This document shows, piece by piece, positions 13,285-59,094 of a stretch of 64,000 nucleotides of DNA. The stretch is taken from contig NZ_JAUNOQ010000011.1 in the NCBI RefSeq assembly GCF_030531065.1, forward strand, positions 1-64,000, given 5' to 3'. Position 1 is the stretch's first letter. Each line of letters starts with the position of its first letter. This stretch comes from Phascolarctobacterium sp. Lineage in GTDB: Bacteria; Bacillota; Negativicutes; Acidaminococcales; Acidaminococcaceae. The translations under genes and the position numbers were made by a program. Below the pieces are notes generated by a model. It had not been told where the DNA came from. It did not search any database and was given only the letters and a program-made list of their open reading frames with translations.

Positions 13285-13296
13285 GAAAATTTTCTC

Positions 13297-13327: not shown

Positions 13328-13363
13328 AAAAATACAATCCAATCTATCAGGAGGAAGAAAAAT

Positions 13364-13897
13364 ATGAGCAAGAAAGTTTTAATTTTAGGCGGCAGTCCGC
13401 GTAAGGGCGGCAATTCCGATATTTTGTGCGACGAATTCCGCAAGGGTGCGGAGGCCGCCGGTCACACGGTAGAAAAAATCCGCTTACAGGAAAAGAAAAT
13501 CAATTACTGCCTGGCCTGCTACGGCTGCCGTGAAAGCGGCAAATGCGTGCAAAAGGACGACGCCAACGAAATCATCGACAAGATGCAGGCAGCCGACGTC
13601 ATCGTTTTGGCCACGCCCGTTTATTTTTATTCCATGAGCGGCCAAATGAAAACTTTTATCGACCGCGCCGTTGCCAAATGGACGCAAATCGTCGATAAGG
13701 AATTTTATTTTATCGCCACCGCCGCCGAACATAAAGCTTCGATGGAACGTACTATGGACGCATTGTACGGCTTTACCGACTGTTTGACGGGCGCCGCAGT
13801 CAAGGGCAAAATTTACGGCGAAGGCGTTTACCAAAAGGGCGAAGTGAAAGCTACGCCCGCTATGCAGGAAGCGTACCGCATGGGGCAAAATATTTAA
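13364..13897 (+). CDS. NAD(P)H-dependent FMN reductase / flavodoxin family protein (1)
   Basis: A 177-residue flavodoxin-fold protein. The FMN phosphate loop GSPRKGGNSD is at residues 10-19, a cysteine cluster CLACYGCRESGKC at about 49-61, and the TPVYFYSMSGQMKTFIDR segment near 84-101. This class reduces FMN or quinone-like acceptors with NAD(P)H; the cysteines recall the iron-sulfur flavoproteins. GGAGGAAG precedes the ATG. Its promoter (site A) carries a MerR dyad, linking it to the redox genes at 14.7-22.9 kb. Confidence 0.85.
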   Translation: MSKKVLILGGSPRKGGNSDILCDEFRKGAEAAGHTVEKIRLQEKKINYCLACYGCRESGKCVQKDDANEIIDKMQAADVIVLATPVYFYSMSGQMKTFIDRAVAKWTQIVDKEFYFIATAAEHKASMERTMDALYGFTDCLTGAAVKGKIYGEGVYQKGEVKATPAMQEAYRMGQNI

Positions 13898-13937
13898 ACG
13901 CCGCTCCACCGGCCGCTTAAAATGTAATAGCGCATAC

Positions 13938-13987
13938 AAAAAAGCTGGCGCATTAAGCTTACCGTTAAGCTCGTGCGCCAGCTTTTG
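13938..13987 (+). terminator. Terminator copy 1, left border of the toxin-antitoxin cassette
   Basis: A 13-bp stem AAAAGCTGGCGCA (13940-13952) with TGCGCCAGCTTTT (13974-13986) and an inner AGCTTA/TAAGCT stem. It is identical over 48 bases to the hairpin at 14682-14729. Confidence 0.85.
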
Positions 13988-13993
13988 CTTTAA

Positions 13994-14022
13994 TTGACAA
14001 TATTCCCTCAAAGGAATATAAT
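13994..14022 (+). promoter_or_regulatory. Consensus promoter with operator in its spacer
   Basis: TTGACA (13994-13999), 17 bp, TATAAT (14017-14022): a full consensus promoter. A perfect inverted repeat TATTCC-N6-GGAATA (14001-14018) fills the spacer, the expected place for autorepression by the antitoxin or the toxin-antitoxin complex. Confidence 0.8.
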
Positions 14023-14044
14023 ATGTTTAAAGGCGGTGCGTAAT

Positions 14045-14404
14045 TTGTTTGACGTTGATTTTTACAGACTCGAAAACGGGGAAGCTCCTGTAGAAATTTT
14101 TTTGGATAGCCTTAATATCAAAATGCGAAACAAAGCGTTAGATAGTCTTTTGCTTTTGGAAGAATTTGGAAATACCTTGCGAGAACCGCATTCCAAACAC
14201 ATTGAAAGCGGCATTTTTGAATTAAGAATTAAATTTGCCAGCGACATCAGCAGAATATTTTATTTTTTCTACGTCGGCAATAAAATAATCCTTACTAACG
14301 GCTTCATCAAAAAGACTAGCAAAACTCCAAAATCAGAATTAAATTTGGCGAAGAAATATAAAGCGGATTACGAAAAACGCTTTGGCGCCAAGGAGGCGAA
14401 GTGA
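14045..14404 (+). CDS. HigB/RelE-type toxin (Gp49-like, type II TA)
   Basis: A 119-residue protein of the phage-derived Gp49-like / HigB family, typically ribosome-dependent mRNA interferases. Visible features are the N-terminal strand DVDFYRLENG, the helix EIFLDSLNIKMRNKALDSL, the conserved IFELRIKF strand with the arginine, RIFYFFYVGNKIILTNGF and KKTSKTPKSEL. The consensus promoter ends at 14022, so the start must lie downstream. TTG at 14045 has GGCGGTG at a good distance; GTG at 14036 is the alternative. The stop is one base before the antitoxin ATG. Confidence 0.85.
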   Translation: MFDVDFYRLENGEAPVEIFLDSLNIKMRNKALDSLLLLEEFGNTLREPHSKHIESGIFELRIKFASDISRIFYFFYVGNKIILTNGFIKKTSKTPKSELNLAKKYKADYEKRFGAKEAK

Positions 14405-14405
14405 A

Positions 14406-14678
14406 ATGAGCGATTTAAAAAAATATTTTGCCAAACAAATGCAAGATCCGGAATTTAAAGCTGAACACGACGCTACCAGAGTTGAATTTGAAGTAGTTCG
14501 CGCATTAGCGGCAGCGAGAGCAGAAACTCATATAACGCAGCATGAATTGTCCCTGCGGTCCGGCGTCCGCCAATCCAACATCAGCCGTATAGAAAGCGGC
14601 GCTTGCATACCTACGCTTGCTACATTACAAGCCCTGGCGCGAGGAATGAATAAAAAACTAATTATTGATTTTAAATAA
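14406..14678 (+). CDS. XRE-family antitoxin (HigA-like)
   Basis: A 90-residue protein with a Cro/C1-type helix-turn-helix (TQHELSLRSGVRQSNISRIE near residues 45-64) and a conserved end GACIPTLATLQALARGMNKK. AAGGAGG precedes the ATG at 14406. The toxin-first order is typical of higBA. It should neutralise the toxin and repress the promoter at 13994 through the TATTCC/GGAATA operator. Confidence 0.88.
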   Translation: MSDLKKYFAKQMQDPEFKAEHDATRVEFEVVRALAAARAETHITQHELSLRSGVRQSNISRIESGACIPTLATLQALARGMNKKLIIDFK

Positions 14679-14681
14679 GCC

Positions 14682-14733
14682 AAAAAGCTGGCGCATTAAG
14701 CTTACCGTTAAGCTCGTGCGCCAGCTTTTTTTT
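14682..14733 (+). terminator. Terminator copy 2, right border of the toxin-antitoxin cassette
   Basis: Same stem as at 13940-13986 (AAAAGCTGGCGCA with TGCGCCAGCTTTT, here 14683-14695 and 14717-14729), followed by eight or more T. It ends the TA operon and could also serve the convergent flavodoxin gene. Confidence 0.88.
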
Positions 14734-14741
14734 GCGTGTGC

Positions 14742-15350
14742 TTATTTTTTATATCCCAATTTATTCAGCCATTCGTCAATGCCCTGCGGGCGGTTGACGG
14801 TGATGCCGTCGATTACTTTAGCGTTTTTCTTATTTAACGCGTCGTGCAGCTTGGGCAGGGTTTCGCTGATATCGCTGCCGCCGCTGGTACAGAACAGCAC
14901 TACGGTTTTGCCGCTCAAATTACTTTTCTCGATAAAGCTGAACACCGCCATGGGCGCCTGGTGCCACCAAATGGGATAGCCGATAAAAATCACGTCGTAG
15001 TTTTGCTTATCCGGCAGCGTCCCCTGCAGCGCCGGGCGCGCGTCGTTCTGCATTTCGGCCTTCGCTACTTCGGTACACTCGCGGTAAGCGGACGGATAGG
15101 GATTTACCGTAGCAATTTTAAACAGGTCGCCGCCGATAATTTTTTGCGCGTCCTGCGCCGCCCTTTCGGTCGTGCCGCTATAAGTAAAATAAGCGATTAA
15201 AGTCTTTTTGCCCTGCAAGCCTTCGCTTGCCGCCGTCGGAGCCGTTTTGGCCGGAGCGGGCTGCGCCGCGCTGCTTGGAGTTTGTCCGCCGCAAGCGGCG
15301 ACAATTAGCGCTACAAAAACCAACATTAAAACGGTAATTAATTTTTTCAT
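14742..15350 (-). CDS. Flavodoxin-family lipoprotein
   Basis: A 202-residue exported flavodoxin-like protein. The N-terminus is a lipoprotein signal (MKKLITVLMLVFVALIVAAC, lipobox Cys20) followed by a Pro/Ala linker. The flavodoxin domain starts at KTLIAYFTYSGTTERAA (FMN phosphate loop S-G-T-T-E) and has VIFIGYPIWWHQAPMAVFSF and VVLFCTSGGSD. It would act on the outer face of the cytoplasmic membrane. AGGAGGAC precedes the ATG. Its promoter has a perfect MerR dyad (site B). Confidence 0.88.
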   Translation of the reverse strand: MKKLITVLMLVFVALIVAACGGQTPSSAAQPAPAKTAPTAASEGLQGKKTLIAYFTYSGTTERAAQDAQKIIGGDLFKIATVNPYPSAYRECTEVAKAEMQNDARPALQGTLPDKQNYDVIFIGYPIWWHQAPMAVFSFIEKSNLSGKTVVLFCTSGGSDISETLPKLHDALNKKNAKVIDGITVNRPQGIDEWLNKLGYKK

Positions 15351-15399
15351 ACGTCCTCCTTAGCTTATAGCCGCCGCTACCGGCGGCTTATTTATTTTT

Positions 15400-15430
15400 A
15401 TTTTATACCTTAAAGCTCACTTTAAGTCAA
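15400..15430 (-). promoter_or_regulatory. MerR-type promoter, site B (perfect dyad)
   Basis: On the minus strand TTGACT (15430-15425), a 19-bp spacer and TAAAAT (15405-15400). The spacer contains the perfect dyad CTTAAAG-N4-CTTTAAG (15409-15426). It drives the flavodoxin lipoprotein. An overlapping TATAAA gives a 17-bp alternative. Confidence 0.8.
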
Positions 15431-15462
15431 GAAGCGTAACAAAAGATTTGCACTTTTATCAC

Positions 15463-15493
15463 TTGACCTTTAGTCGGCTTCAGCAGTTATAAA
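15463..15493 (+). promoter_or_regulatory. Possible MerR-type promoter, site E (weak dyad)
   Basis: TTGACC (15463-15468), 19 bp, TATAAA (15488-15493). The spacing is as at the other sites, but each arm of the dyad matches only about four of seven positions. It points towards the LysR gene at 15630. Confidence 0.35.
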
Positions 15494-15546
15494 AGAAGTA
15501 AAGCTTATTTATCCTCACTCCAAACATTACCATCGCTAATGAAAGG

Positions 15547-15570
15547 CATTAATTTTAGAATTTGTTTATC
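15547..15570. repeat. 24-bp motif upstream of LysR (2), copy 1
   Basis: 22 of 24 bases match 16536-16559; the shared core includes CATTAATTTTA and ATTTGTTTATC. It lies 10 bases before a TATAAT box (15581-15586) that has no good -35, so it is a candidate LysR binding site. Confidence 0.65.
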
Positions 15571-15629
15571 CCTGCCCGCTTATAATACCATAAGGTTAAA
15601 TAATGTTTATCATAAGGAGGAGACATTTC

Positions 15630-16541
15630 ATGCTTATGCAGCAAATAAAATATTTTACGGCCGTTGTAAATTGCAAAAGCTTTACCGAAGCGGCGGAGCA
15701 ATGTTATATTACTCAATCCGCCATCTCGCAGCAGATAAAATCTTTGGAACGCGAGCTGGGCGTGCAGCTGATTCAGCGCGGCAACCGCAAATTCTGCCTG
15801 ACACCGGCCGGAGAATTTTTCTACCGCAACTGCCTGCTGCTGGTGGAGGAATTCAACCGTTTGAAAAGCGAAACCAAGCAAATTGGCAGGCTCAGCGGCA
15901 ATTTGCTGCGCATCGGCGCTTTAAGCAGCTACGGCGGCGCCGAGCTTTTGGACGCGGCCTCCACCCTGCTGGCGAAATATCCGGAGCTGTCGCTGAATTT
16001 AGTATCCGGAACCCACGACGAGCTTTGCGAAATGATTGCCCGCGACGAAATCGATTTGGCCTTCAACGACCAGCGCAATTCTGTCACGGACGAATACGGC
16101 TGCCGCCAGCTGGCTACCGCCGGCGCTTTTATCGCCGTCGCGCCCCAATCCAAGCTGAGCCGTCTGGACTACGCCGAACCGAATATGCTGCGCGCCACTC
16201 CCTGCATTCTCGTCGCCGCGCCCGAACAGCAAAGCTCGGAAAAGCGTTTCTTCCGCCTCAGACTGGATATGAGCGATAATTTTTTATACGCGGCCAATTT
16301 AGAGGAAGCTATGTATATGGTTATCAGCGATAAGGGCTACCTGCCCATGGATATGTATTCCGTCAACCGCGCCCGCTACAGCGGTTTTATCCATTGCATC
16401 CCCTTGTACCGCAACAACCGGCAGCTGACCAAGCGCTACTGCATCTTTTGGAAACGCAGCCGCGCCAACGACGCTATGGAGGAATACGTAAGGGTTTTGG
16501 AAAGCAAATTCGTTAGTACTCCAATTAATGATTCCCATTAA
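15630..16541 (+). CDS. LysR family transcriptional regulator (2)
   Basis: A 303-residue LysR regulator starting MLMQQIKYFTAV, with the HTH FTEAAEQCYITQSAISQQ at residues 18-35 and a substrate-binding domain. The ATG at 15630 is favoured by AAGGAGGAGA. It is a paralog of the LysR at 3792. It is flanked by two near-identical 24-bp motifs, one in its own promoter region and one overlapping its end in front of the porin promoter, suggesting control of itself and the porin. Confidence 0.9.
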   Translation: MLMQQIKYFTAVVNCKSFTEAAEQCYITQSAISQQIKSLERELGVQLIQRGNRKFCLTPAGEFFYRNCLLLVEEFNRLKSETKQIGRLSGNLLRIGALSSYGGAELLDAASTLLAKYPELSLNLVSGTHDELCEMIARDEIDLAFNDQRNSVTDEYGCRQLATAGAFIAVAPQSKLSRLDYAEPNMLRATPCILVAAPEQQSSEKRFFRLRLDMSDNFLYAANLEEAMYMVISDKGYLPMDMYSVNRARYSGFIHCIPLYRNNRQLTKRYCIFWKRSRANDAMEEYVRVLESKFVSTPINDSH

Positions 16542-16559
16542 TTTTATGATTTGTTTATC
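16536..16559. repeat. 24-bp motif upstream of the porin promoter, copy 2
   Basis: Matches 15547-15570 at 22 of 24 positions. It overlaps the last codons of the LysR gene and the -35 region of the porin promoter. Confidence 0.65.
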
Positions 16560-16579
16560 TATTCGCGCTCTTCTATAAT
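16551..16579 (+). promoter_or_regulatory. Promoter of the porin gene
   Basis: TTGTTT (16551-16556), 17 bp, TATAAT (16574-16579). It gives a leader of about 245 bases. The leader holds a GC-rich inverted repeat (GGTCGGCCGCG...CGGCCGGCC near 16667-16694) and an element near 16590-16660 whose ends AAAAAGCAG and CTGCCTTTTT could pair. Confidence 0.7.
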
Positions 16580-16832
16580 GGAAATGTAAAAAGCAGCCAT
16601 GGTAGTACTAAGGATTTTGCCTCCAGGGGTGGGGGTTTTACTCACATTCACTGCCTTTTTACACCCGGTCGGCCGCGTCCCTGGCGGCCGGCCTGCCTAT
16701 AGCTGTAAAACGCTGCGCGCAGCCGACGCTACCGCATTTTGAGGAAACAAGGCAACTCAAAAACCGAGGGCGCGTTAATCTGGGAGCGGCGTTTTGTAAA
16801 TATTTTTCTCAAAGCAAAGGGAGGAAAAGAAA

Positions 16833-18092
16833 ATGAAAAAGTCTCTCGTATTAGCAATGGCAATGGCTCTGGGCGTAACCGCTTCCGCCTATGCCGCAAA
16901 CCCGTTCAGCGACGTTCCCGCAGGCCACTGGGCATATGACAGCGTAAACAAGCTGGCTGCAGCAGGCGTAATCGACGGCTACGGCGACGCTACCTTCGGC
17001 GGCGACAAGCTGATGACCCGTTATGAAATGGCGCAAATCGTAGCGAAGGCTATGGCTCGCGGCGCTAACGTCGACAAGCTGGCAGCAGAATTCGCCGACG
17101 AACTGGACACTCTGGGCGTGCGCGTCGCCAACCTGGAAAAGAAAGCCGATAACGTAAAAATCACCGGCCAAGTTCGTATGTCCTACGCTTCCGGCGATAC
17201 TTCCCGCGGCGGCGACCATGGTCGTCTGCGTACCCGTCTGTTCATTAACGGCGCAGTAAACGACGACTGGACTTACACCGCGCGTTTGGAAAACAACCAA
17301 TACACCGACAATAACTCCGGCGAAGACGACACCAATTTGAACTGGGCTTTCGTATCCGGCAAGATTGGCGGCATTAAGGTTGACGCAGGCCGCAACGATT
17401 TCGTTTACACCGACACCATGGATACCCGCGGCGACGGCATTAAACTGTCCTACGGCAAGGACCTTAAGCTGACCGGTTGGGCTTTGAAGGGCGTTTCCAG
17501 CACTTCCGTCGGCGGACGCAAAGCCAACGTCTTAGACGACGACGGTAATGTTATCAATCCGCAACAATCTTTTGAAGGCGACCGCATTTACGTTGCCGAT
17601 TTAGGCGCTAAATTGGGCGTAGTAAACGCTAACGTGCGTTACTTCAAAACCGATATGCAAACCGAAACTTACGATAAAGAATTTATCGAAGCTGCTGTAG
17701 CATTCCCCATCGCCAAAGATTTGAAACTGAGCGCATCTTACTTCAACGGCGACGTTGAACAAAGCGGCGGCTTTGACGACAACGGCTATTTAGTAGGATT
17801 AAACTACAAAGGCGCCAAAGCTTCTCAAGTCGGCAGCTGGGGCTTGTACGCTAAATACAGCGAACGTCCTTGGGCTACCTACCTTGAGCCTACCGTATTC
17901 GCAGGTACTTACGCAACTCAGCCCGCTTCTTACAACACCGTTGCTGGCGACGGCTATAAGGGCTACGAAGTCGGCGGCAATGTAACCTTGGCTAAGAACA
18001 TAGTTCTCGGTCTGAAATACACCGACTTTGAATCCCGCGAAGGCGACGACGCTAACCAAGTTATGTGGTCCGAAGTAATATTCACTTTCTAA
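16833..18092 (+). CDS. ompM: SLH-domain outer membrane porin (OmpM/Mep45 type)
   Basis: A 419-residue outer-membrane porin specific to Negativicutes. Residues 1-21 are a signal peptide ending AYA. Residues 22-75 form one SLH domain (NPFSDVPAGHWAYDSVNKLA ... TRYEMAQIVAKAM) that binds modified peptidoglycan. A short coiled coil follows (LAAEFADELDTLGVRVANLEKK), then a beta-barrel from about residue 108 ending in phenylalanine (EVIFTF). It anchors the outer membrane and lets solutes through. GGGAGGAAAAG precedes the ATG. In Selenomonas the SLH ligand is cadaverine-linked peptidoglycan; a matching decarboxylase gene lies at 37126-38307. Confidence 0.95.
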   Translation: MKKSLVLAMAMALGVTASAYAANPFSDVPAGHWAYDSVNKLAAAGVIDGYGDATFGGDKLMTRYEMAQIVAKAMARGANVDKLAAEFADELDTLGVRVANLEKKADNVKITGQVRMSYASGDTSRGGDHGRLRTRLFINGAVNDDWTYTARLENNQYTDNNSGEDDTNLNWAFVSGKIGGIKVDAGRNDFVYTDTMDTRGDGIKLSYGKDLKLTGWALKGVSSTSVGGRKANVLDDDGNVINPQQSFEGDRIYVADLGAKLGVVNANVRYFKTDMQTETYDKEFIEAAVAFPIAKDLKLSASYFNGDVEQSGGFDDNGYLVGLNYKGAKASQVGSWGLYAKYSERPWATYLEPTVFAGTYATQPASYNTVAGDGYKGYEVGGNVTLAKNIVLGLKYTDFESREGDDANQVMWSEVIFTF

Positions 18093-18154
18093 TTTCATCG
18101 CCACATTTCATTTCGACACCCAAACTGCCAATCCAAAATTGGCGAACACACATC

Positions 18155-18194
18155 AAAGGCTCCTTACGCACGCAGACGTAAGGAGCCTTTATTA
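18155..18194 (+). terminator. Terminator of the porin gene
   Basis: A 14-bp stem AAAGGCTCCTTACG (18155-18168) with CGTAAGGAGCCTTT (18177-18190), followed by a T-containing tail. Confidence 0.85.
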
Positions 18195-18276
18195 TGCTCT
18201 ATGCTCTTTAAAATTCAATATACCTATAAGCAGGATTAGAAACCGCAGTAATATCGAACTTATGTTTCTTTTATGC

Positions 18277-18282
18277 TATAAT
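18277..18282 (+). promoter_or_regulatory. Extended -10 promoter of small-peptide element 1
   Basis: TATAAT at 18277-18282 preceded by TGC (extended -10). The predicted transcript begins near GGTACTACC at 18291. Confidence 0.55.
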
Positions 18283-18397
18283 AATATCTAGGTACTACCA
18301 TAACGGTATGCGGTTGTCCCTCTCTGTGTAAGGGAGGGTGCGTCCCTCCCTTGATAGGATTTTTTGTCGAAATCTAATTAGAGAGGGGGCGATCACC

Positions 18398-18499
18398 ATA
18401 AGTTGTACTGAGGTCATTGGCCTTTTAACCCTTATTGCTTTTGTAGCATTTGGGTGTATCAACCTTGGTATTAAGATTGGAAAAGAACGCAAAAAATAA
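18398..18499 (+). CDS. Small hydrophobic peptide, holin-like type I toxin, ATA in place of ATG
   Basis: A 33-residue frame: one hydrophobic helix (EVIGLLTLIAFVAFGCINLG) and a basic tail (KIGKERKK). The context GGGGGCGATCACC-ATA aligns with GGGGGTGATACT-ATG of the clear toxin gene at 23074-23151, with ATA exactly where ATG is expected. The gene is either silenced by a start-codon mutation or uses a rare start. Extended -10 promoter, leader hairpin, bidirectional terminator and convergent antisense promoter are all intact. The family match is by arrangement and short helix, so only moderately sure. Confidence 0.5.
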   Translation: MSCTEVIGLLTLIAFVAFGCINLGIKIGKERKK

Positions 18500-18580
18500 C
18501 CGCCCCGTCCTGACAAAACGAGCGGTTATTTTTTTAACTACTGCTTGAGGGACAACCGCTTATCGGTAGTACCTTTCTGT
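18490..18580 (-). ncRNA. Predicted antisense antitoxin RNA of element 1
   Basis: Minus-strand promoter TTGACT (18615-18610), 17 bp, TATAAT (18592-18587). The RNA would start near 18580 and stop at the shared terminator, overlapping the 3' end of the peptide mRNA. This is the layout of type I loci such as txpA/ratA and bsrG/SR4. Confidence 0.55.
18495..18535. terminator. Bidirectional terminator of element 1
   Basis: AATAACCGC (18495-18503) with GCGGTTATT (18522-18530), T-run to the right and A-run to the left, so it works for both convergent transcripts. Confidence 0.85.
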
Positions 18581-18789
18581 ATTTATATTATAACAGCAGA
18601 ATGCGAAGAAGTCAAATTGGGGCTCTTTAACAAAAAATTCCCGCCGCGAAATTTTCCAGCCATCCGTCATGCTGCAAAAACAAAACAAGTGACGATTTAC
18701 CCAAAAAAGGAGTACATATCGCCTCTTGTTTTTTATTTTGTTATTTTGTTTGCCGCCTGCAAAAAATGTGCGTCAGCCGCCGCCAAGCT

Positions 18790-19272
18790 TTACTGCTCCT
18801 TCACCAGCAGTTCTTCCGGACGGTAGTGCATATCGCGCAGCTGCTTGCGAACCTCCCGCAGCTCGGCCGGCACCTCGTCCTCGTCCATTTCGCGCGGCAC
18901 GGCGGTGGAGCCCGCTTCCTTAGCCGTCTGGTAATACCACACTTTATAATCCAAAATGCGCATAATTTTTTGCAGGTTAGCCATTTGCTCCTCCATGGCG
19001 GCCTGCTGCTTTTTGATAAGCGCCAGGCGCTGCTCGATGGACGCGTCTCCCTGCTGCACCATACGCATAAATTCTTTGATATCCTTTAAGGGCATACCGG
19101 AATTTTTCAAACAGCTGATGATGCACAGCCCCTCGTAGTCGCTTTCTTTAAACATACGGATGCCGCCCTCGCTGCGCTCCACGAACGGCAGCAAACCCTC
19201 CTTATCATAATAGCGCAGGGTCGAAGGCTGCACCTGCATAATCTTCGCCATTTCGCCAATCGTATAAAACAT
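18790..19272 (-). CDS. MerR family regulator (AdhR/NmlR-like)
   Basis: A 160-residue regulator: N-terminal MerR winged helix (YTIGEMAKIMQVQPSTLRYY, then GGIRMFKESD), a coiled-coil dimer helix (IEQRLALIKKQQAAMEEQM) and an acidic C-terminus. Cys54 in ISCLKNSGM sits where the AdhR/NmlR group has its conserved electrophile-sensing cysteine. No metal-binding cysteine pair is seen at the C-terminus. The ATG at 19272 has TGGAGGCGG at the right distance; an upstream in-frame start at 19299 lacks this. It is divergent from the aldo/keto reductase gene across site C. Its likely targets are the promoters at sites A-D. Confidence 0.9.
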   Translation of the reverse strand: MFYTIGEMAKIMQVQPSTLRYYDKEGLLPFVERSEGGIRMFKESDYEGLCIISCLKNSGMPLKDIKEFMRMVQQGDASIEQRLALIKKQQAAMEEQMANLQKIMRILDYKVWYYQTAKEAGSTAVPREMDEDEVPAELREVRKQLRDMHYRPEELLVKEQ

Positions 19273-19306
19273 TTCTACCGCCTCCAAAATTTTTTCCAAA
19301 AAGCTC

Positions 19307-19337
19307 TTGACTTAAAGCTGACTTTAACTTCTATAAT
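19307..19337 (+). promoter_or_regulatory. MerR-type promoter, site C
   Basis: TTGACT (19307-19312), 19 bp, TATAAT (19332-19337). The spacer holds CTTAAAG-CTGA-CTTTAAC (19311-19328), one mismatch from a perfect dyad. It lies between the MerR gene and the aldo/keto reductase gene. Confidence 0.82.
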
Positions 19338-19423
19338 TTAATTAAACTTACAGCTACATTATACCACAGCTGTTGTAAATAGCAAACGCGTATATCTACA
19401 AAAATGAAAGCGAGGTTTTAATT

Positions 19424-20311
19424 ATGGAATATGTAACTTTAAGCAACGGCGTAAAAATGCCAATCCTTGGCTACGGCGTTTACCAGGTAACGAAGGACGA
19501 ATGCGAGCGCTGCGTTTTAGACGCGCTCAAAGCCGGTTATCGTTCCATCGACACGGCGCAAAGCTATTTTAATGAGGAAGAAGTCGGCGCAGCGCTGGTT
19601 AAGTCAGGCGTCCCCCGCCGGGAAATTTTCCTGACCACTAAAATCTGGGTGGAACATTACGGTTACGAAGCCTGCAAAGCCTCCGTCGAGGAATCTTTGA
19701 GAAAGCTCAAGACCGATTATCTGGATTTGTGTTTGCTGCACCAACCCTTTGCCGATTATTACGGCGCGTGGAGAGCGTTGGAGGAATTGTACGAAGCCGG
19801 AAAAATCAAAGCGATTGGCGTTTCTAATTTCTATCCCGACCGCCTGGTAGACATCGCCAGCTTCGCCCGCATCCGCCCCATGGTAAACCAGGTTGAAACT
19901 CATCCCTATAACCAGCAGGTTGTGGCTAAAGAGTACATGGATAAATATAATGTGCAAATCGAAGCCTGGGCTCCCTTCGGCGAAGGCCGCAAAGGATTGT
20001 TTGAGGACGAAACGCTAAAAGCCATCGGCGCCAAATACGGCAAGACTACGGCGCAGGTAATGCTCAGATGGCACATTCAGCGCGGCGTCGTTGTTATCCC
20101 CAAGTCCACGCATTACGAGAGAATGGTAGAGAACTTCAACGTTTTTGATTTCGCGCTTACGGACGAAGATATGGCGGCCATCGCAGCGCTTGATAAAAAA
20201 GAAAGCTCCTTCTTCTCCCACTACGACCCCGCCATGGTGGAATGGTTCGTAAAAATGGTGGAAGAACGTAAAACTAATAAAGACTGCCGCAAGGATAAAA
20301 AGAATTGGTAA
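19424..20311 (+). CDS. Aldo/keto reductase
   Basis: A 295-residue NADPH-dependent AKR of the diketogulonate reductase type. The catalytic Asp and Tyr are in RSIDTAQSYFNEEEVG, Lys in TTKIWVEHYGYE, His in LCLLHQPFADY, and the C-terminal cofactor segment is VVIPKSTHYERMVENFNVF. It reduces aldehydes and ketones, fitting carbonyl detoxification under an AdhR-like regulator. It is the first gene of a run with a CMD-family protein (13-base gap) and an alpha/beta hydrolase. Promoter: site C. Confidence 0.93.
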   Translation: MEYVTLSNGVKMPILGYGVYQVTKDECERCVLDALKAGYRSIDTAQSYFNEEEVGAALVKSGVPRREIFLTTKIWVEHYGYEACKASVEESLRKLKTDYLDLCLLHQPFADYYGAWRALEELYEAGKIKAIGVSNFYPDRLVDIASFARIRPMVNQVETHPYNQQVVAKEYMDKYNVQIEAWAPFGEGRKGLFEDETLKAIGAKYGKTTAQVMLRWHIQRGVVVIPKSTHYERMVENFNVFDFALTDEDMAAIAALDKKESSFFSHYDPAMVEWFVKMVEERKTNKDCRKDKKNW

Positions 20312-20324
20312 GGAGGCAACTACT

Positions 20325-21035
20325 ATGTTTAAAAAATCCATCGTCATTTCCTGTTTAGCGCTTGCCAGCTTAGGAATTTTGGGCGGCCCGGCGCACGCCG
20401 CCGATAAACAGCCGCTTACTCCGCGCGAATCCAGCATAGTTACCGTAGCCGCTTTTACGGCTCAGGGCGATTTGGAAAATTTGCGCCCCGCTCTGAACCA
20501 GGCGTTGGACGCCGGCATGACCGTCAACGAAGTGAAGGAAGTGCTGCTGCACCTGTACGCTTATTCCGGCTTTCCCCGCTGTCTGAACGGTTTGAACACG
20601 CTCATCAGCGTACTGGAGGAACGCAAGGCCGCAGGTATTGAGGACGTTGTCGGCCGCGATGCTACTCCCGTCGACCCCAACCGCGACCGTCTGGCCAACG
20701 GCACGAAAACGCAGACCGAAATAGCCGGACGCCCCATAGGCGGCAAGCTTTACGACTTCGCTCCCTTCGCCAATACGCTGCTGCGCGAGCATCTTTTCAA
20801 CGATTTATTTGAGCGCGACCTGCTCACCTATCAGGAGCGCGAATTCGCTACCGTCGGCGCGCTGGCGGGCATCGGCAACGTAAATCCGCAATTAGCCGGG
20901 CATATGCGCTGCAGCCTGAACGTGGGCATTACGGCAGACGAATTGCAGGCGGCAGTTAAATTATTGGGCGAGCGCGTCGGTCAAAAAACCGGCGACAACG
21001 CGCAAGCCGTTTTAGAAAAGGTTTTGCAAAAATAA
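20325..21035 (+). CDS. Exported carboxymuconolactone decarboxylase family protein
   Basis: A 236-residue protein with a signal peptide (residues 1-25, ending AHA) and two CMD/AhpD-like helical repeats: EVLLHLYAYSGFPRCLNGL in the first and EREFATVGALAGIGNVNPQL in the second. The CxxC of peroxidase-active AhpD is absent from the first repeat (YSGFPRC). Similar proteins are fused or linked to redox and cupin proteins, with unclear enzymology. AAGGAGG precedes the ATG; it is co-transcribed with the aldo/keto reductase. Confidence 0.85.
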   Translation: MFKKSIVISCLALASLGILGGPAHAADKQPLTPRESSIVTVAAFTAQGDLENLRPALNQALDAGMTVNEVKEVLLHLYAYSGFPRCLNGLNTLISVLEERKAAGIEDVVGRDATPVDPNRDRLANGTKTQTEIAGRPIGGKLYDFAPFANTLLREHLFNDLFERDLLTYQEREFATVGALAGIGNVNPQLAGHMRCSLNVGITADELQAAVKLLGERVGQKTGDNAQAVLEKVLQK

Positions 21036-21089
21036 TTCTTCAATAATAATTTAAAGAACGAAAATAATTTGAGAAACGAGGTAAGCATC

Positions 21090-22148
21090 ATGAAAAAAAT
21101 TTATCTGGCAGCTTTAATGGCTTTGGCCTTGGGCGTAGCGGGCAGCGCCGCCGCCGCTCCTTATCAGGATAACCCCTACACTTTAGTTTATGACCACGCC
21201 ATCACGCAGAATATCAAGGGACAGGTTAATATTCATCCTGTAAGCTATATGCTGCACGGCGTAAAAATCGCCGCCAATGTTTATACTCCGGCTAATTATA
21301 ATCCGCTGAAAAAATATCCGGCGGTGGTCGTCGCTCATCCCAACGGCGGCGTTAAGGAGCAGGTAGCAGGCCTGTACGCGCAGCGCCTGGCAGAGCTCGG
21401 CTACATCACCATCGCTGCGGACGCGGCTTATCAGGGAGCCAGCGGCGGCGAACCCCGCAATCTGGACGTGCCCTACTACCGCACCGAAGATATCCACGGC
21501 ATGGTGGACTACATCAGCCAATATCCCGGCGTGGACGCTGACCGCTTAGGCGCTTTGGGCATCTGCGGCGGCGGCGGCTACACTCTGAACGCAGCCAAAT
21601 CCGAAAAGCGCGTGAAGGCCTTCGCTACCATCAGCATGTTCAACAGCGGCCGCGTAAGACGCAACGGTTATATCGATTCCCAATTGGACAACGTGCAAGA
21701 GCGCATGGCTCAGGCAGCCGCAGCCCGCGCCGCTGAAATTGCCGACGGAACCGTTTCCTATGCCGGCAACGTGGACTTCGACGCGCTGACCGACGAGGGC
21801 ATCGCCAAAATCGGCACCGATTTGTACCGCGAGGGCATGATGTACTACGGCCGCACCCATCGTCATCCCAACTCCACCTTCCGCTATACCACCGGCAGCC
21901 TCATGGAATTGATGAGCTGGGACGCAACGGATAACATAGATTTGATTAACGCGCCGCTGCTGCTCATCGCAGGCGCTAAGGCCGACTCCCTCTATATGTC
22001 CGAGGACGCTTTCGCCAAAGCCACCGGCACGAGCGACAAAGAGCTGTTCACCGTCCCCGGCGCAACGCATATCCAAACCTATTATGTGCCCGAATATGTG
22101 GACCAGATTGTGAATAAGCTGCAAAGCTTCTACGGGCGCACGCTGTAA
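21090..22148 (+). CDS. Exported alpha/beta hydrolase, dienelactone-hydrolase-like
   Basis: A 352-residue secreted hydrolase. A signal peptide (MKKIYLAALMALALGVAGSA) is followed by an alpha/beta-hydrolase fold. The nucleophile elbow reads G-I-C-G-G-G (near residue 167), so the predicted nucleophile is cysteine rather than serine, as in dienelactone hydrolase. The oxyanion region is AHPNGGVKEQ, and the catalytic histidine is probably in VPGATHIQTYY near the end. GAGGTAAGC supports the ATG at 21090 over a start seven codons upstream. It is third in the aldo/keto reductase run. Confidence 0.85.
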   Translation: MKKIYLAALMALALGVAGSAAAAPYQDNPYTLVYDHAITQNIKGQVNIHPVSYMLHGVKIAANVYTPANYNPLKKYPAVVVAHPNGGVKEQVAGLYAQRLAELGYITIAADAAYQGASGGEPRNLDVPYYRTEDIHGMVDYISQYPGVDADRLGALGICGGGGYTLNAAKSEKRVKAFATISMFNSGRVRRNGYIDSQLDNVQERMAQAAAARAAEIADGTVSYAGNVDFDALTDEGIAKIGTDLYREGMMYYGRTHRHPNSTFRYTTGSLMELMSWDATDNIDLINAPLLLIAGAKADSLYMSEDAFAKATGTSDKELFTVPGATHIQTYYVPEYVDQIVNKLQSFYGRTL

Positions 22149-22184
22149 TTCGCAAGAAAAATTTACAGGCCTCCCTTGAAACGC

Positions 22185-22215
22185 TTGACTTAAAGTCAAC
22201 TTCATGCCTTATAAT
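22185..22215 (+). promoter_or_regulatory. MerR-type promoter, site D
   Basis: TTGACT (22185-22190), 19 bp, TATAAT (22210-22215). The dyad CTTAAAG-TCAA-CTTCATG (22189-22206) has a perfect left arm and two mismatches on the right. Confidence 0.78.
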
Positions 22216-22270
22216 AAGGATAGGAAGCGCGCGGGAAATTTCCGCGCGGCGTAACAAGGAGGTTTTTATA

Positions 22271-22888
22271 ATGAAGGTTTTATTGGTCAACGGCAGTCCG
22301 CACGTCCACGGCAATACGGATATCGCCTTGCAGGAAATGATAAAAATTTTTCAGGCCGAGGGCGTGGAAACAGAAGTGCTGCACATTGGGCACAAGGCTA
22401 TCCGCGGCTGCATCGCCTGCCGCAAATGCGCGCAAACGGGCCGCTGCGTTTTCGACGACGAGGTCAACGCCGCCGCTCCCAAATTTGCGGAGTGCGACGG
22501 TTTGGTAATCGCCAGTCCGGTTTATTACGCTTCGGCTAACGCTACGCTTATCGCCTTCCTCGACAGGCTGTTCTTCAGCACACAGTTCGACAAAACCATG
22601 AAGGTAGGCGCGAGCGTAGTCGTAGCGCGCCGCGGCGGTTTATCATCCACCTTCGACGAATTAAATAAATATTTCGCCATCTGCGGGATGCCCATCGCTT
22701 CCAGCCAATACTGGAACAGCGTGCACGGCCGCGAGCCGGGCGAAGCGCTGCAGGACGGCGAGGGTCTGCAAACCATGCGCACTCTGGCCCGCAATATGAC
22801 CTTTTTGATGCGCTCCATCGCCCTAGGCAAAGAAAAATACGGCTTGCCGGAAAAGGAGCCGTGGATTGGCACGCACTTCGTCCGTTGA
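22271..22888 (+). CDS. NAD(P)H-dependent FMN reductase / flavodoxin family protein (2)
   Basis: A 205-residue flavodoxin-fold reductase: FMN loop GSPHVHGNTDIAL, cysteine cluster CIACRKCAQTGRC near residues 48-60, and SPVYYASANATLIAFLDRLF. It is related to the protein at 13364, which has the same cysteine spacing pattern. AAGGAGG precedes the ATG. It has its own MerR-type promoter (site D), so expression probably follows the upstream aldo/keto reductase run. Confidence 0.87.
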   Translation: MKVLLVNGSPHVHGNTDIALQEMIKIFQAEGVETEVLHIGHKAIRGCIACRKCAQTGRCVFDDEVNAAAPKFAECDGLVIASPVYYASANATLIAFLDRLFFSTQFDKTMKVGASVVVARRGGLSSTFDELNKYFAICGMPIASSQYWNSVHGREPGEALQDGEGLQTMRTLARNMTFLMRSIALGKEKYGLPEKEPWIGTHFVR

Positions 22889-22946
22889 GCGGACGGGCGC
22901 GGACGTGCGGTTACAGCTCGGCGGCGTTTGTATAAAGCGATAAGCC

Positions 22947-22975
22947 TTGACTATTTTTCGTTTTGCGTTTACAAT
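22947..22975 (+). promoter_or_regulatory. Antisense promoter of small-peptide element 2
   Basis: TTGACT (22947-22952), 17 bp, TACAAT (22970-22975), pointing at the toxin gene. Confidence 0.75.
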
Positions 22976-22982
22976 AAGAAAA

Positions 22983-23067
22983 GAGATAGCCGGTTGTGGT
23001 AAGTCGGCTCTCCCCAAAAAAGTATTGTTTGAAAGGAAGCCGCTTAACCGCACGTTAGGCGGTTTTT
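22983..23067 (+). ncRNA. Predicted antisense antitoxin RNA of element 2
   Basis: An RNA of about 85 bases from the promoter at 22947 to the hairpin AACCGC/GCGGTT (23046-23064) and its T-run. It converges on the toxin mRNA and overlaps its 3' end. Its 5' GAGATAGCCGG resembles the toxin mRNA 5' GAGATAGTCGG. Confidence 0.6.
23041..23067. terminator. Shared terminator of element 2
   Basis: AACCGC (23046-23051) with GCGGTT (23059-23064) and a T-run to 23067. On the minus strand the same hairpin lies just after the toxin stop codon. Confidence 0.7.
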
Positions 23068-23073
23068 CTCATT

Positions 23074-23151
23074 TTATTTGCGAAATGAGAGAATGAGAAC
23101 TACAAGCGTAGCGAAGCTAATCATCAACGATAACGCTTCAGCAACAGTCAT
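23074..23151 (-). CDS. Putative holin-like toxin (type I TA)
   Basis: A 25-residue peptide beginning MTVAEALSLMISFATL and ending LILSFRK: one transmembrane helix and a basic end, typical of the Firmicute putative holin-like toxin group (TxpA-related). GGGGGTGAT lies before the ATG. The leader contains a CCTACTC/GAGTAGG hairpin that can hide the ribosome-binding site. Promoter: TGG-TATAAT (23221-23213, extended -10). Such peptides depolarise the membrane unless blocked by antisense RNA. Confidence 0.8.
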   Translation of the reverse strand: MTVAEALSLMISFATLVVLILSFRK

Positions 23152-23212
23152 AGTATCACCCCCTACTCTTAGGGAGTAGGAAAACCGACAAGCCGACTAT
23201 CTCATGCCCAAT

Positions 23213-23221
23213 ATTATACCA
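23213..23221 (-). promoter_or_regulatory. Extended -10 promoter of the holin-like toxin
   Basis: On the minus strand TGGTATAAT (23221-23213), with only a weak -35. The predicted mRNA starts near GAGATAGTCGG. Confidence 0.6.
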
Positions 23222-23271
23222 TACATCAGCAAAACTGCGAAGCATTTTACAAAAATATTTTTGCTAAAAAT

Positions 23272-23307
23272 AAAGACTGCCGCATTTTTTAATGCGACAG
23301 TCTTTTT
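23272..23307 (-). terminator. Terminator of cyuA
   Basis: AAAGACTG...GCATT pairs with AATGC...CAGTCTTT around a T-rich loop; U-rich on the minus-strand side. Confidence 0.8.
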
Positions 23308-23311
23308 AATT

Positions 23312-24574
23312 TTAGAGGCCCAGCATGACGTCGATAATTTCTTTATCGGTTTCCACCATGCCCTGGCTGGCGATTTTGCCCACCGCGGCGATGGTTTCGT
23401 CGGCAGTTTCCTGCACGATGCCGTCGCCGCCGGCAAAATTGCGCTGCGCCATCGACATATCGAAACCCAGCAGGCCGCCCTCTACCGCCATGGCGATTTT
23501 AGCGGCGCAGGACGATTTTGCGCCGTCGCAGATAATGCCGGAATTGATGGCCAAAGCGTTTTCCACCGTATGCTCGATTTGCTCGTCCGTCATATCGTGC
23601 AGATAAGCGACGCCCGCCCCGCTGCCGCAGCCCGCGCTGACCGCGCCGCAGTAAGCCGACAACTTGCCGATGCCCTGCTTTAAGTAAATCGTCACCAAAT
23701 CGCTGAGCAGCACGGCGCGGTACAATTTTTCTTCGCTAACGCCCAGCGCACGGGCGTAAACCACAACGGGAACGCTCGCCGTAATCCCCTGGTTGCCGCT
23801 GCCCGATACGATAACCACCGGCAGCTCGCAGCCGTTCATACGCGCGTCGCTGCCCGCCGCCGCCGTAGCCCGCGCCCGCGTGCGCAAGCTTTCGGGGTCG
23901 CGCTGCAGCAAAATTTTGCCGATGCTCGCGCCGTAATCGCGCGCCAAACCTTCTTCGGAAATAGCCATATTATACTCAATCTGGCGTTTCAATAACGGCA
24001 GCGCGTTATCCAGCGGCATATTACGCGCCGCGTCCAAAACGTCTTCGATAGTCCACACGCTCTGCGCCGTTGCCGCAGTCTCCGGCACGATTGGTTTTTC
24101 CAAAACCGTCGCGCCGTTCTTTTTGATGGAAGTGATATTAGTATGGTCCGTGCGAATCGTCACTTCGGCGTTCTGCCCGCCGCCCGCAACGAAAACGCGG
24201 ATGTAAAAAATATCGGGCTCCTCCGAAACGTGAATCTTAATCGTACCCGATTCCGCCAGGCGTTTAATCGCTTCCTTTTCCCGCCCGTCGATATAGGCCA
24301 GCACCTCCAGCTGCCGCTCCGGGTGCGCGGCCACCAGGCCCGCGGCGCAGGCGACCTCGATGCCCTTCATCTGATTCGTATTGGGCACGACCACGCTCTT
24401 GACGTTTTTGATAATATTGCGGCTGACCCAGATTTCTACCTGCTCCGGAAAGCAGCCCAGCTGCTCGCGGCACACGGCGGCGCAATAAGCGATAGCGATG
24501 GGCTCCGTACAGCCCATGGCCGGGATGAGCTCCTCGGCCAGCGCCTCCTCGTAAACGGCGTATTTATTTTCCAT
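23312..24574 (-). CDS. cyuA: L-cysteine desulfidase family protein
   Basis: A 420-residue protein of the CyuA/YhaM (UPF0597) family: an oxygen-sensitive [4Fe-4S] enzyme splitting cysteine into pyruvate, ammonia and sulfide. Candidate cluster cysteines are in AMGCTEP (residue 22) and in CGSGAG and CDGAKSSC of the C-terminal domain. GSGNQGI and the glycine-rich AGGGQNAEV are family signatures. GGAGGGT precedes the ATG. It lies downstream of lysA on the same strand but is separated from it by a terminator. Confidence 0.9.
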   Translation of the reverse strand: MENKYAVYEEALAEELIPAMGCTEPIAIAYCAAVCREQLGCFPEQVEIWVSRNIIKNVKSVVVPNTNQMKGIEVACAAGLVAAHPERQLEVLAYIDGREKEAIKRLAESGTIKIHVSEEPDIFYIRVFVAGGGQNAEVTIRTDHTNITSIKKNGATVLEKPIVPETAATAQSVWTIEDVLDAARNMPLDNALPLLKRQIEYNMAISEEGLARDYGASIGKILLQRDPESLRTRARATAAAGSDARMNGCELPVVIVSGSGNQGITASVPVVVYARALGVSEEKLYRAVLLSDLVTIYLKQGIGKLSAYCGAVSAGCGSGAGVAYLHDMTDEQIEHTVENALAINSGIICDGAKSSCAAKIAMAVEGGLLGFDMSMAQRNFAGGDGIVQETADETIAAVGKIASQGMVETDKEIIDVMLGL

Positions 24575-54958: not shown

Positions 54959-55564
54959 ATGAAATGTAAATGCGCAAGCTGTCCCAGCCACGCCTGCTAT
55001 ACCAAAGGCGTCAACTGCACCGGCGTGCCGCTGGACGAGGTCAAAGCGGCTTATACCGAAGAGGAATTAAAAATCATGCAGGCCGCCGCCTATGTGGAAG
55101 GCACCTTTTACAGCAATATCTGCCGCCTGCAGGAAACCGCCGAATTCGCCAAAGCCATGGGCTACAAAAAGCTGGGCATGGCCTTCTGCATCGGGCTCAA
55201 CAGCGAGGCCCGCTATATCGCCAAATATTTTGAGCAGCAGGGCTTTGAATTTTACAGCGTTTGCTGCAAAAACTGCAGCTTCCCCAAAAAGGAGCTGGGC
55301 TTGAAGCAGGTTAAACCGGAGCTGGAGCACGAAGCCATGTGCAATCCTAAATTCCAGGCAAAATTTTTAGCGGAGCAGGGAGTGGAGCTTTTCATTTCCT
55401 GCGGTCTGTGCGTAGGCCACGACGCAGTTTTCAATATGAACTGCAGCGGACCGGTTACCAATATCGTAGTCAAAGACCGCCTGCTGGCTCACAATCCCCT
55501 GGGCGCAATTTATTCCCGCTACTGGAAGCGCAAGCTGAATATTATGGACGAAGGTGAAGTATAA
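54959..55564 (+). CDS. DUF1847 family cysteine-rich metal-binding protein
   Basis: A 201-residue protein with an N-terminal cysteine cluster (CKCASCPSHACYTKGVNC), CKNCSFPKKELG in the middle and SCGLCVGHDAVF near residue 150, matching the DUF1847 pattern. A redox or metal cofactor is likely, but no activity is known. GGAGGAGG precedes the ATG. It is divergent from rpsF across the pfkB relic. Confidence 0.87.
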   Translation: MKCKCASCPSHACYTKGVNCTGVPLDEVKAAYTEEELKIMQAAAYVEGTFYSNICRLQETAEFAKAMGYKKLGMAFCIGLNSEARYIAKYFEQQGFEFYSVCCKNCSFPKKELGLKQVKPELEHEAMCNPKFQAKFLAEQGVELFISCGLCVGHDAVFNMNCSGPVTNIVVKDRLLAHNPLGAIYSRYWKRKLNIMDEGEV

Positions 55565-55574
55565 AAGCAATATC

Positions 55575-55626
55575 AAAAGACCGCCTGCCAAACGGTAAGC
55601 GGTCTTTTGCTTTCCCTTATTTAAAT
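55575..55626. terminator. Terminator copy 1, left border of the autotransporter cassette
   Basis: AAAAGACCGC pairs with GCGGTCTTTT around an inner CCTGCCAAACGGTA loop. The 52 bases 55575-55626 are identical to 58010-58061. It serves the convergent DUF1847 and autotransporter genes. Confidence 0.9.
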
Positions 55627-55681
55627 TGCTTCGCCTTTTCTCGCGGATAATAAAGAGAAAGAGATATATGTCTAAAATACT

Positions 55682-57859
55682 TTAAAAGTTATAAGTTACT
55701 TGCACGTTGCCGCTGAATCCTTCCCGTTCGCCCGCATATCCGCGCACTTTAGCATCTAAGCTCCACGGAGATTCTTTACTTGCCGCATAGCGTACTCCTA
55801 TTTCGCCAATATATGTGCTTCCCTGCAGGCTCTGCGTCGGCGCACTCAAATTCTGTACCCGCATATCCGCGTCGCCGTTAAATTCATATTCCCAGGCTAA
55901 GCCATAATAAGCCGTCCACCTGCCTTGTTTATTGGCTGTTAAACGCGCTCCTATTTGCAGACGGTCGCTGGTAACGCTGTCGAAAGAAAATTTATCGTCC
56001 GCTACCGTAAAGCTGTCGCTTGCGTTATATGTATGGAAATATTTTCCGTATATATCCAGTTCACTGCTGCCGCTTAAATTATAAATTCTGCCTAAGCCTA
56101 CGTGCGCTCCATAATAAGCGGTATCAGTTTTATATCCGTAACTATTGCCTACGCCGTCTCGCAAAGCGTTTTTCATTTCGCTTTTCAACATACCGGCGCG
56201 CAAGCTGCCTTCAGTGTATACGCCGTTTTCTTGTTTATAACGCAGCATCGCGCCGCCGCCATTGTAGACCAAACTGCCATCGCCGCGAAAGAAATCATCG
56301 TTAAAGCTGTTGAACGTGCGGTAATTGCCGCTCCCATTTTCAAAAAATACGCCCCAGCTCAAATCGCCGCTCTTCAGCTTCTTGCTCGCGCCCACGCCGA
56401 AAAGTCCGCTCCAGCCGTTGATTTTTAAATCGCTGTTCACGTCGTACTTGCTGCGGTTGCCGTAGACTGCGGCAAAAGTTTTAACGCCGTAATGAGCGTC
56501 CGCCGTTAAGCTTAACAAGCCGTCGGAAATTAAATCGCTGCCTTGATTAACAAACGCAGCCGCTACTGCGCGATTTTCAGCGACTAGGTTAACTTGCTTA
56601 TTCACCGTTACTTCCGTTATTTTATATGCAACTTTCCCGCTTTCTATAATTGCTTCGCCTGATCCGGCAACGCCCACGCCTGCGACAAACTTATCGCTTA
56701 CTTTTACATTATCCTGCGTAATTCCCAAATTAGCGCCGCTGGAACTGGTAACCAGCGTCATACTTTCGCCAGCCTGCAACTTCTTGCCGCCGTTAAAGTT
56801 TACGCTATTAAGCTTGATTTGCGTATTCGCCAACGAAGCTTTGAGGTCGTCGGCAGAACCCGTAAGTGATAGTACCGTACCGCCGTTCTGCCACGCGATA
56901 TTCTGCATATCGATGCCGCTAAAATTATACGCGCCCAAGGCAGCGCCGCTCCAACCGTCGATGAGCAGCGTGTTATTTCTTATGTTACTGTCGTTTATCG
57001 CAAAATTGCTGCCATATAATGCCGCATTAGCTACGTTGCCCGTTTCTCGCAAAACGACTTTATTGTCGGTTATTTGGTCATCTTTAGTAGCCAAGCCGCC
57101 AATAACTCTGCCTGTAATATATCCACCGCTAATATTAACGATATTGCCTATAACGTCGCCTTTACTACCTCCGGCACTACTTCCCATGTTTATGGGGACA
57201 CCGCCGCAGGTAATACCGCCGACAATATCTCCGGTGACACTTCCGCCGGAAATATTAACCGTATTTTCTTTAATAGCGTAATTATCTTTTGCATAATAGG
57301 AAGACCCGCCATAAATATCTCCGTTGATTTTCGCGTTTCCCTCTATATTTACCGTATTATTGTGCGCATTACCCAAAGCTCCGTAAACGTCGCCGTCAAC
57401 AACCTCCACGTTACCCTTGATTGTCACCGTATTATTATAACGCTCCGGGATATTTTTACCATTACTTGGCATCATCTCCGCACCAGCGCCATAAACGACG
57501 CCATACCCATTGTTTCCTAATATTTTAGCATTGCCGTCGATTATTACCTCATTATTAAAAACATTTTTCGTATAATCGTTAGAAAAAGCGCCAAAAACTT
57601 TCTTTACTTCTACAGAGCCGCCGATATAAACCTGCGCTCCTGTATATTCCGCTACGCTCGGCTTACCCGCATAGCTATATCCTTGTATCTCCAAATATTT
57701 TCCTTCAATAATATTTATCTTTCCGTTCGCAGCATTACCGTTGCCAATTTTTGTATAATTATCATCCGCCGCAGCGCAACTACTCATCTGCGCCGCTCCA
57801 CTGAACGCAGCCGCCGCTAAAACGCTAACCATAATTTTTCTCAATAAATTTTTACGCAT
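55682..57859 (-). CDS. Autotransporter outer-membrane beta-barrel protein
   Basis: A 725-residue type V secretion protein: signal peptide (KIMVSVLAAAAFSGAAQ), a passenger of repeated short strands (NNTVTIKGNVEVVDGDVYG, NTVNISGGSVTGDIVGG) to about residue 430, and a C-terminal autotransporter barrel from about 450 to the terminal phenylalanine (VQVTYNF). The passenger pattern is that of beta-helical adhesins. GGGAGGTG supports the ATG at 57859; a longer frame upstream is unlikely. The whole gene lies between two identical 52-bp terminators, which points to insertion or exchange as a cassette. Confidence 0.92.
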   Translation of the reverse strand: MRKNLLRKIMVSVLAAAAFSGAAQMSSCAAADDNYTKIGNGNAANGKINIIEGKYLEIQGYSYAGKPSVAEYTGAQVYIGGSVEVKKVFGAFSNDYTKNVFNNEVIIDGNAKILGNNGYGVVYGAGAEMMPSNGKNIPERYNNTVTIKGNVEVVDGDVYGALGNAHNNTVNIEGNAKINGDIYGGSSYYAKDNYAIKENTVNISGGSVTGDIVGGITCGGVPINMGSSAGGSKGDVIGNIVNISGGYITGRVIGGLATKDDQITDNKVVLRETGNVANAALYGSNFAINDSNIRNNTLLIDGWSGAALGAYNFSGIDMQNIAWQNGGTVLSLTGSADDLKASLANTQIKLNSVNFNGGKKLQAGESMTLVTSSSGANLGITQDNVKVSDKFVAGVGVAGSGEAIIESGKVAYKITEVTVNKQVNLVAENRAVAAAFVNQGSDLISDGLLSLTADAHYGVKTFAAVYGNRSKYDVNSDLKINGWSGLFGVGASKKLKSGDLSWGVFFENGSGNYRTFNSFNDDFFRGDGSLVYNGGGAMLRYKQENGVYTEGSLRAGMLKSEMKNALRDGVGNSYGYKTDTAYYGAHVGLGRIYNLSGSSELDIYGKYFHTYNASDSFTVADDKFSFDSVTSDRLQIGARLTANKQGRWTAYYGLAWEYEFNGDADMRVQNLSAPTQSLQGSTYIGEIGVRYAASKESPWSLDAKVRGYAGEREGFSGNVQVTYNF

Positions 57860-58009
57860 AAAAACACCTCCCAAATTGAATTTATGGGAGGAGATTATTA
57901 TTCGGAAAGAATTAAGCGAAGCGCTCGTCCCCCCCAAATGTACATATATATTTTATTCTATAATCTATACATAAAATCCTGCTGCCGCCCAATTTTTCTT
58001 GCACATACA

Positions 58010-58061
58010 AAAAGACCGCCTGCCAAACGGTAAGCGGTCTTTTGCTTTCCCTTATTTAAAT
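58010..58061. terminator. Terminator copy 2, right border of the autotransporter cassette (ilvC terminator)
   Basis: Identical over 52 bases to 55575-55626. It lies just after the ilvC stop on the minus strand and acts as its terminator. Confidence 0.9.

Positions 58062-58092: not shown

Positions 58093-59094
<1,002 letters not shown>

Follow-up and report, generated by a model that had tools for sequence, protein, structure and literature searches.

The 64-kb window (the whole stretch of DNA analysed), from a Phascolarctobacterium-type gut bacterium, contains an autotransporter gene bounded by two exact copies of a 52-bp direct repeat, each of which includes a predicted terminator. Comparison with congeners shows that the junction between the neighbouring DUF1847 and ilvC genes originally held one bidirectional terminator and, judged from the aligned sequences, this lineage has recently gained 2,435 bp, made up of the autotransporter gene and the second copy of the terminator. 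Recurrence of the pattern at several other accessory genes of the genome suggests that terminators are places where new genes land.

The DUF1847-ilvC junction and its insert

Both copies of the repeat, at 55575-55626 and 58010-58061, read AAAAGACCGCCTGCCAAACGGTAAGCGGTCTTTTGCTTTCCCTTATTTAAAT. Each consists of a 34-bp hairpin, predicted to be a bidirectional intrinsic terminator (G+C-rich hairpin, then a short run of 4-5 T on the transcribed strand), and 18 bp that are the native flank on the ilvC side. The left copy, which has a fold of approximately -20 to -25 kcal/mol and is terminator-like on the minus strand, is predicted to end both DUF1847 (plus strand) and the autotransporter gene (minus strand); the right copy is predicted to end ilvC (minus strand) and to shield the autotransporter gene. 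The features of the junction are:

54959-55564, plus strand, DUF1847 gene, left neighbour (PF08901, E=2e-53); conserved with ilvC in congeners
55575-55626, left repeat copy, 34-bp bidirectional hairpin terminator (predicted) plus GCTTTCCCTTATTTAAAT; exact match
55682-57859, minus strand, autotransporter gene, 725 aa from ATG (ORF, structural model, Foldseek; homologues match PF03797)
57860-58009, minus strand, upstream region of the autotransporter gene, part of the insert; absent from the empty site of congeners G004 and G005
58010-58061, right repeat copy, exact match; TGCTTTCCCTTATTT beside ilvC is kept in congeners (L009, L010)
58093-59088, minus strand, ilvC, right neighbour (PF07991 and PF01450)
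55627-58061, gained unit of 2,435 bp, comprising the autotransporter segment and a single copy of the terminator; not present in G004 or G005

No copies of the repeat arose by chance in 100 shuffles, and no third copy was found in the whole genome with up to 3 mismatches allowed. As the hairpin core occurs nowhere else in this genome or in the 58 other genomes of the family, a dispersed terminator family was rejected. A special tail motif at cassette terminators, TTTTGCTTT, was also rejected, as it follows ordinary terminators that have no partner. The only other exact repeats of at least 20 bp in the window are a 48-bp terminator pair around a toxin-antitoxin cassette and those of tandem Rpn-type genes at 0.3-2.5 kb. 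Homology past the 52-bp ends was not significant (flank P 0.12 and 0.43), and no known RNA family was matched at the locus.

In congeners G004 (L009) and G005 (L010), the DUF1847 gene (93-94 % identical to that in the window) is followed after ~190 bp by ilvC (94-95 % identical), without an autotransporter gene. The gap holds one bidirectional terminator that has the arm GTAAGCGG in common with the window terminator, and the motif TGCTTTCCCTTATTT, which is also found inside the 52-bp repeat, stands just before ilvC. Presence of both arm and motif at this site indicates that the repeat is native to the DUF1847-ilvC junction. The hairpins differ between species but the two window copies are identical, and the duplication therefore postdates the split from G004 and G005. 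In G058, which belongs to another genus, a single hairpin comes after ilvC and rpsF lies beyond it, with no insert.

A sequence-only reading of the window had described an exact 52-bp duplication enclosing only the autotransporter gene, and had proposed that this gene was slotted between housekeeping genes. The exact match without a third genomic copy, and the sole gene between the copies (minus strand, 55682-57859), bear out the description. The genome comparison it had suggested, for a single terminator between DUF1847 and ilvC, found such a site in two congeners and this, with the undiverged copies, agrees with the proposal; the opposite outcome it had named, a cassette present in all relatives with diverged terminators, was not observed, as relatives do not share the cassette. 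We note that ilvC (58093-59088) is 84-86 % similar to orthologues in other genera versus 76-77 % for some assigned congeners, which may reflect gene exchange or a genus that is broadly defined.

Judged from its model, the protein encoded by the insert is a classical autotransporter. Like the classical (type Va) proteins, it has a signal peptide, a beta-helix passenger, a linker helix and a 12-strand barrel. In the AlphaFold model (mean pLDDT 83.8) the linker helix is made up of residues 421-453, and the best Foldseek matches of the model are EspP (E=8.5e-12), BrkA, EstA, Hbp, AIDA-I and NalP. However, this member is too diverged to match a Pfam model directly; the window protein itself matched nothing in Pfam or NCBIfam, and of the 15 homologues that were aligned, three matched PF03797 (Autotransporter beta-domain), with a best E of 7e-15. 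Homologues were found in 33 of the 59 family genomes, those of highest identity (55-57 %) belonging to two other genera and lying at other places, and none was found in the closest congeners, G004 and G005. An autotransporter-specific cause of the duplication was rejected, as homologues in other genera lack flanking repeats beyond paralogue similarity. The GC3 of the gene (0.48 versus 0.59-0.67 for DUF1847, ilvC and ilvB) lends weak support to a foreign origin, because that of rpsF is even lower (0.40).

Terminator-flanked cassettes elsewhere in the genome

The survey covered 966 kb of the 2,366-kb genome (41 %), read as stretches. For comparison, 397 kb of congener G004 and 700 kb from two other genera were also read. 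We collected direct repeats that were isolated and non-paralogous, with at least 30 exact bp and copies 0.3-12 kb apart. Six were found in the 966-kb sample, and four of these are on terminators (167 detected, covering ~1 % of the sequence):

Repeat 1, 48 bp, terminator; HigBA-like toxin-antitoxin (window)
Repeat 2, 52 bp, terminator; autotransporter (window)
Repeat 3, ~57 bp with 2 mismatches, terminator; DUF4143 AAA ATPase (contig C25)
Repeat 4, 72 bp, amt terminator; 10.8-kb element with a tyrosine integrase (contig C19)
Repeat 5, 85 bp, 3' end of an aminotransferase gene; 8-kb defence-type cassette (contig C10)
Repeat 6, 36 bp (contig C16)

The other window cassette comprises:

13939-13986, left 48-bp terminator copy, exact repeat
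13994-14678, plus strand, HigB-like (Gp49/RelE-type) toxin ORF and HTH antitoxin ORF (PF05973, E=2e-25; PF01381, E=2e-10)
14682-14729, right 48-bp terminator copy, exact repeat, 3 bp past the antitoxin stop codon

The HigBA-like and DUF4143 cassettes have the same tight terminator-gene-terminator layout as the autotransporter, with 3 to ~150 bp of spare DNA per side in all three inserts. The DUF4143 cassette (L198:16755-18183) lies between TetR-type and RNase G genes. Empty sites were seen for the autotransporter and the amt element only; none was found for the toxin-antitoxin and DUF4143 cassettes, the flanks of which are not conserved in congeners.

The C19 element (13283-24183; L112:13283-20000 plus L123:1-4183) encodes a primase-like protein, a RelE/HTH pair and a tyrosine integrase. 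Its 10.8 kb are flanked by the 72-bp copies of the amt terminator, and congener G004 has this terminator a single time, after amt; the integrase element uses the amt terminator as its attachment site. A 23-kb element on contig C23 has att repeats at a tRNA 3' end that run into the terminator. Thus, site-specific integration with duplication of a terminator is very likely to take place in this lineage. Six tyrosine recombinases are encoded in the genome, two classed as Xer type by their scores and four of other kinds, none of them in the autotransporter cassette. In geometry, the autotransporter, HigBA-like and DUF4143 inserts match the C19 element, but they have no recombinase.

The defence-type cassette of contig C10 (16984-25062; L104/L131) also has no integrase inside. 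Its contents, as named from ORF reading, are a HerA-like ATPase, a SIR2-like protein and two methylase/restriction-like proteins. The 36-bp copies on contig C16 are 8.6 kb apart (L075:593-9220) and follow a short hydrophobic ORF resembling a type I toxin; this region holds the only other autotransporter of the same family in the genome.

Genes for Rpn-type PD-(D/E)XK nucleases, with 19 matches in the genome, are often in tandem with the terminator repeated with each (window 287-2463; L099:17274-19953; L110:6487-7930; L104:1-1604). The terminator repeats at C5, C10 and the window start are Rpn paralogue pairs. On contig C17, the repeat around an Rpn gene includes the terminator, and what is left of a lost Rpn copy, its 3' end, precedes the left repeat; from its sequence this looks like a remnant of tandem duplication.

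When terminators were scored pairwise, 7 of 256 near pairs were nearly identical versus none of 1,651 far pairs, with nothing between, and all nearly identical pairs were within 12 kb. Rpn paralogues account for five of the seven. The strict stem finder did not pick up the pairs of the autotransporter, C19 and C17, which were taken from the exact-repeat search.

The earlier reading had drawn a parallel with the toxin-antitoxin cassette, which is indeed bounded by terminators (48 bp exact at 13939 and 14682), and had suggested a general route by which surface and accessory genes are inserted between housekeeping genes. This suggestion gains support but is not proven: the pattern recurs in this lineage at accessory genes, though the mechanism is not demonstrated. 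Nor is it a property of the autotransporter family, homologues of which in other genera lack such repeats. A search of the kind it had suggested, made over the 966 kb, gave the four non-paralogous cassettes on terminators, but several further pairs are tandem Rpn paralogues. Duplicated terminators were not randomly distributed (7 of 256 against 0 of 1,651) and lie around accessory genes.

Origin of the duplicated terminator

The reading we favour, tentatively and at somewhat below an even chance, is that att-like integration duplicated the terminator, with the recombinase supplied in trans or since lost. The incoming DNA, a circle or a transferred segment with the terminator sequence on it, would have recombined at the chromosomal terminator, and the two 52-bp copies would be attL-like and attR-like. 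The terminator would be a tolerated site, with no gene broken and a stop signal kept by both neighbours, the autotransporter gene would be left insulated between two identical terminators, and the identical repeats should permit precise loss of the cassette. Several findings are consistent with this: the single-terminator empty site in two congeners that have no autotransporter homologue, the terminator arm and ilvC-side motif kept at that junction, the identity of the two window copies, the abrupt end of similarity outside the 52 bp (as for att cores), the integrase element between amt terminator copies in the same genome, the equally tight layout of the HigBA-like and DUF4143 cassettes, and the C10 defence cassette, which has an 85-bp copy of a gene's 3' end on each side and likewise no integrase. 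As in att-flanked elements, exact direct repeats are present at both ends of the insert and one is native to the empty site. However, no integrase or recombinase is found between them, where the autotransporter ORF is alone, and the sole integrase-linked case is a larger element. Neither a circular form nor a second location of the unit turned up when other genomes of the family, plasmids and phages were searched, and no plasmid or phage source was matched.

The terminators differ at each locus, and therefore one sequence-specific integrase cannot serve all of them. On this point a duplicating type of repair fits better than att-like integration. Here, a staggered break or stalled fork at the hairpin would capture a foreign fragment, or copy one by template switching, and re-copy the terminator, so that a target duplication of 50-70 bp would arise with no recombinase involved. 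Locus-specific sequences, hairpin-centred repeats of 48-72 bp, sharp ends and the absence of a recombinase all suit such an event. The 19 Rpn-type nuclease genes, an unusually high number, may also be relevant, as Rpn proteins promote RecA-independent recombination in E. coli, modelled as template switching (PMC5350276), but their involvement in terminator duplication is only a guess and is offered as a lead. Repair predicts gene debris, and it fits the tidy inserts worse; the three inserts with autotransporter, HigBA-like and DUF4143 genes are cut closely to their gene units, and a close fit to single transcription units favours defined cassettes over random fragments. We consider repair a somewhat unlikely source. 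Homologous recombination, by which a relative's terminator-autotransporter-terminator DNA (or a one-copy circle) would enter via RecA across the 52 bp or the flanking genes, is unlikely. The 52 bp of identity and the conserved flanking genes would permit it, and the minimal mobile elements of Neisseria are a known precedent, but this route accounts for spread and not for the first duplication, sequence similarity ends at the repeat borders, and the terminator is in no other family genome.

Tandem duplication of gene and terminator followed by loss of one gene copy seems to have occurred for Rpn genes, given the 3' end of the lost copy on C17 and the tandem arrays with repeated terminators. At the autotransporter there is no remnant of a second copy and the right terminator is in its native ilvC context, making this origin very improbable there. 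Recombination between the terminators of an ancestral arrangement would, to go by the anatomy, leave the same single-terminator site in relatives that lost the gene. However, terminators diverge between species and not between the two window copies, the best relatives of the autotransporter are in other genera at other places, and in G058, of another genus, one terminator likewise follows ilvC. An assembly artefact would require a false join, which is unlikely for a short 52-bp repeat present only here. Ancestral loss and artefact together are extremely improbable. As a long shot, a trans-acting recombinase or nuclease system of this lineage might recognise terminator hairpins by their shape, not their sequence, and insert single-gene cassettes, duplicating the terminator each time, an integron-like capture at ordinary terminators; its cassettes would be toxin-antitoxin pairs, ATPases and surface proteins.

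Known systems and related genomes

No paper on terminator-flanked single-gene cassettes was found in the open-access literature. The closest likeness to att-like integration is with tyrosine-integrase elements at gene 3' ends or terminators, in which integration turns a single target copy into two exact direct repeats, tens of bp long, on either side of accessory DNA, but the autotransporter insert is one gene with no integrase. In the minimal mobile elements of Neisseria, as in the insert, individual accessory genes have conserved genes on both sides. What defines these elements is recombination in the conserved flanks and, to our knowledge, duplicated terminators are not a defining feature; the site studied here is empty in two congeners, and no other occupant was seen there. 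In Acinetobacter plasmids, the pdif (XerC/XerD) modules consist of a lone gene or a toxin-antitoxin pair that lies between short recombination sites and lacks a recombinase of its own, as do the autotransporter and toxin-antitoxin cassettes between their short repeats. However, the sites there are 28-bp and dif-like, whereas those here are locus-specific chromosomal terminator sequences. Integron gene cassettes are also mostly single genes bounded by hairpin-forming repeats, but the repeats here are ordinary local terminators that differ in sequence between loci.

Acquired genes would find a natural safe harbour in the terminators of convergent gene pairs, where insertion breaks nothing and, should the terminator be duplicated, the newcomer is insulated at once. 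An identical terminator pair 0.5-12 kb apart would thus be a simple computational mark of recent, possibly reversible gene gains, covering surface and defence genes in gut Negativicutes, and the pattern makes the entry of recombinase-free single genes into chromosomes testable.

In the comparison genomes, no nearly identical near terminator pair was found in G020, and in G007 terminators of one sequence type are scattered, unlike in the genome studied here. On contig C1 of congener G004 (L135:988-5000), Fic-domain and Rpn genes lie beside a tRNA 3' end, and the tRNA 3' end and its terminator are repeated between the genes as an att-like array. On contig C19 of G004 (L153:2467-17685), four similar long terminator hairpins in both orientations stand within ~15 kb, between genes for secreted and lipoprotein-like proteins.
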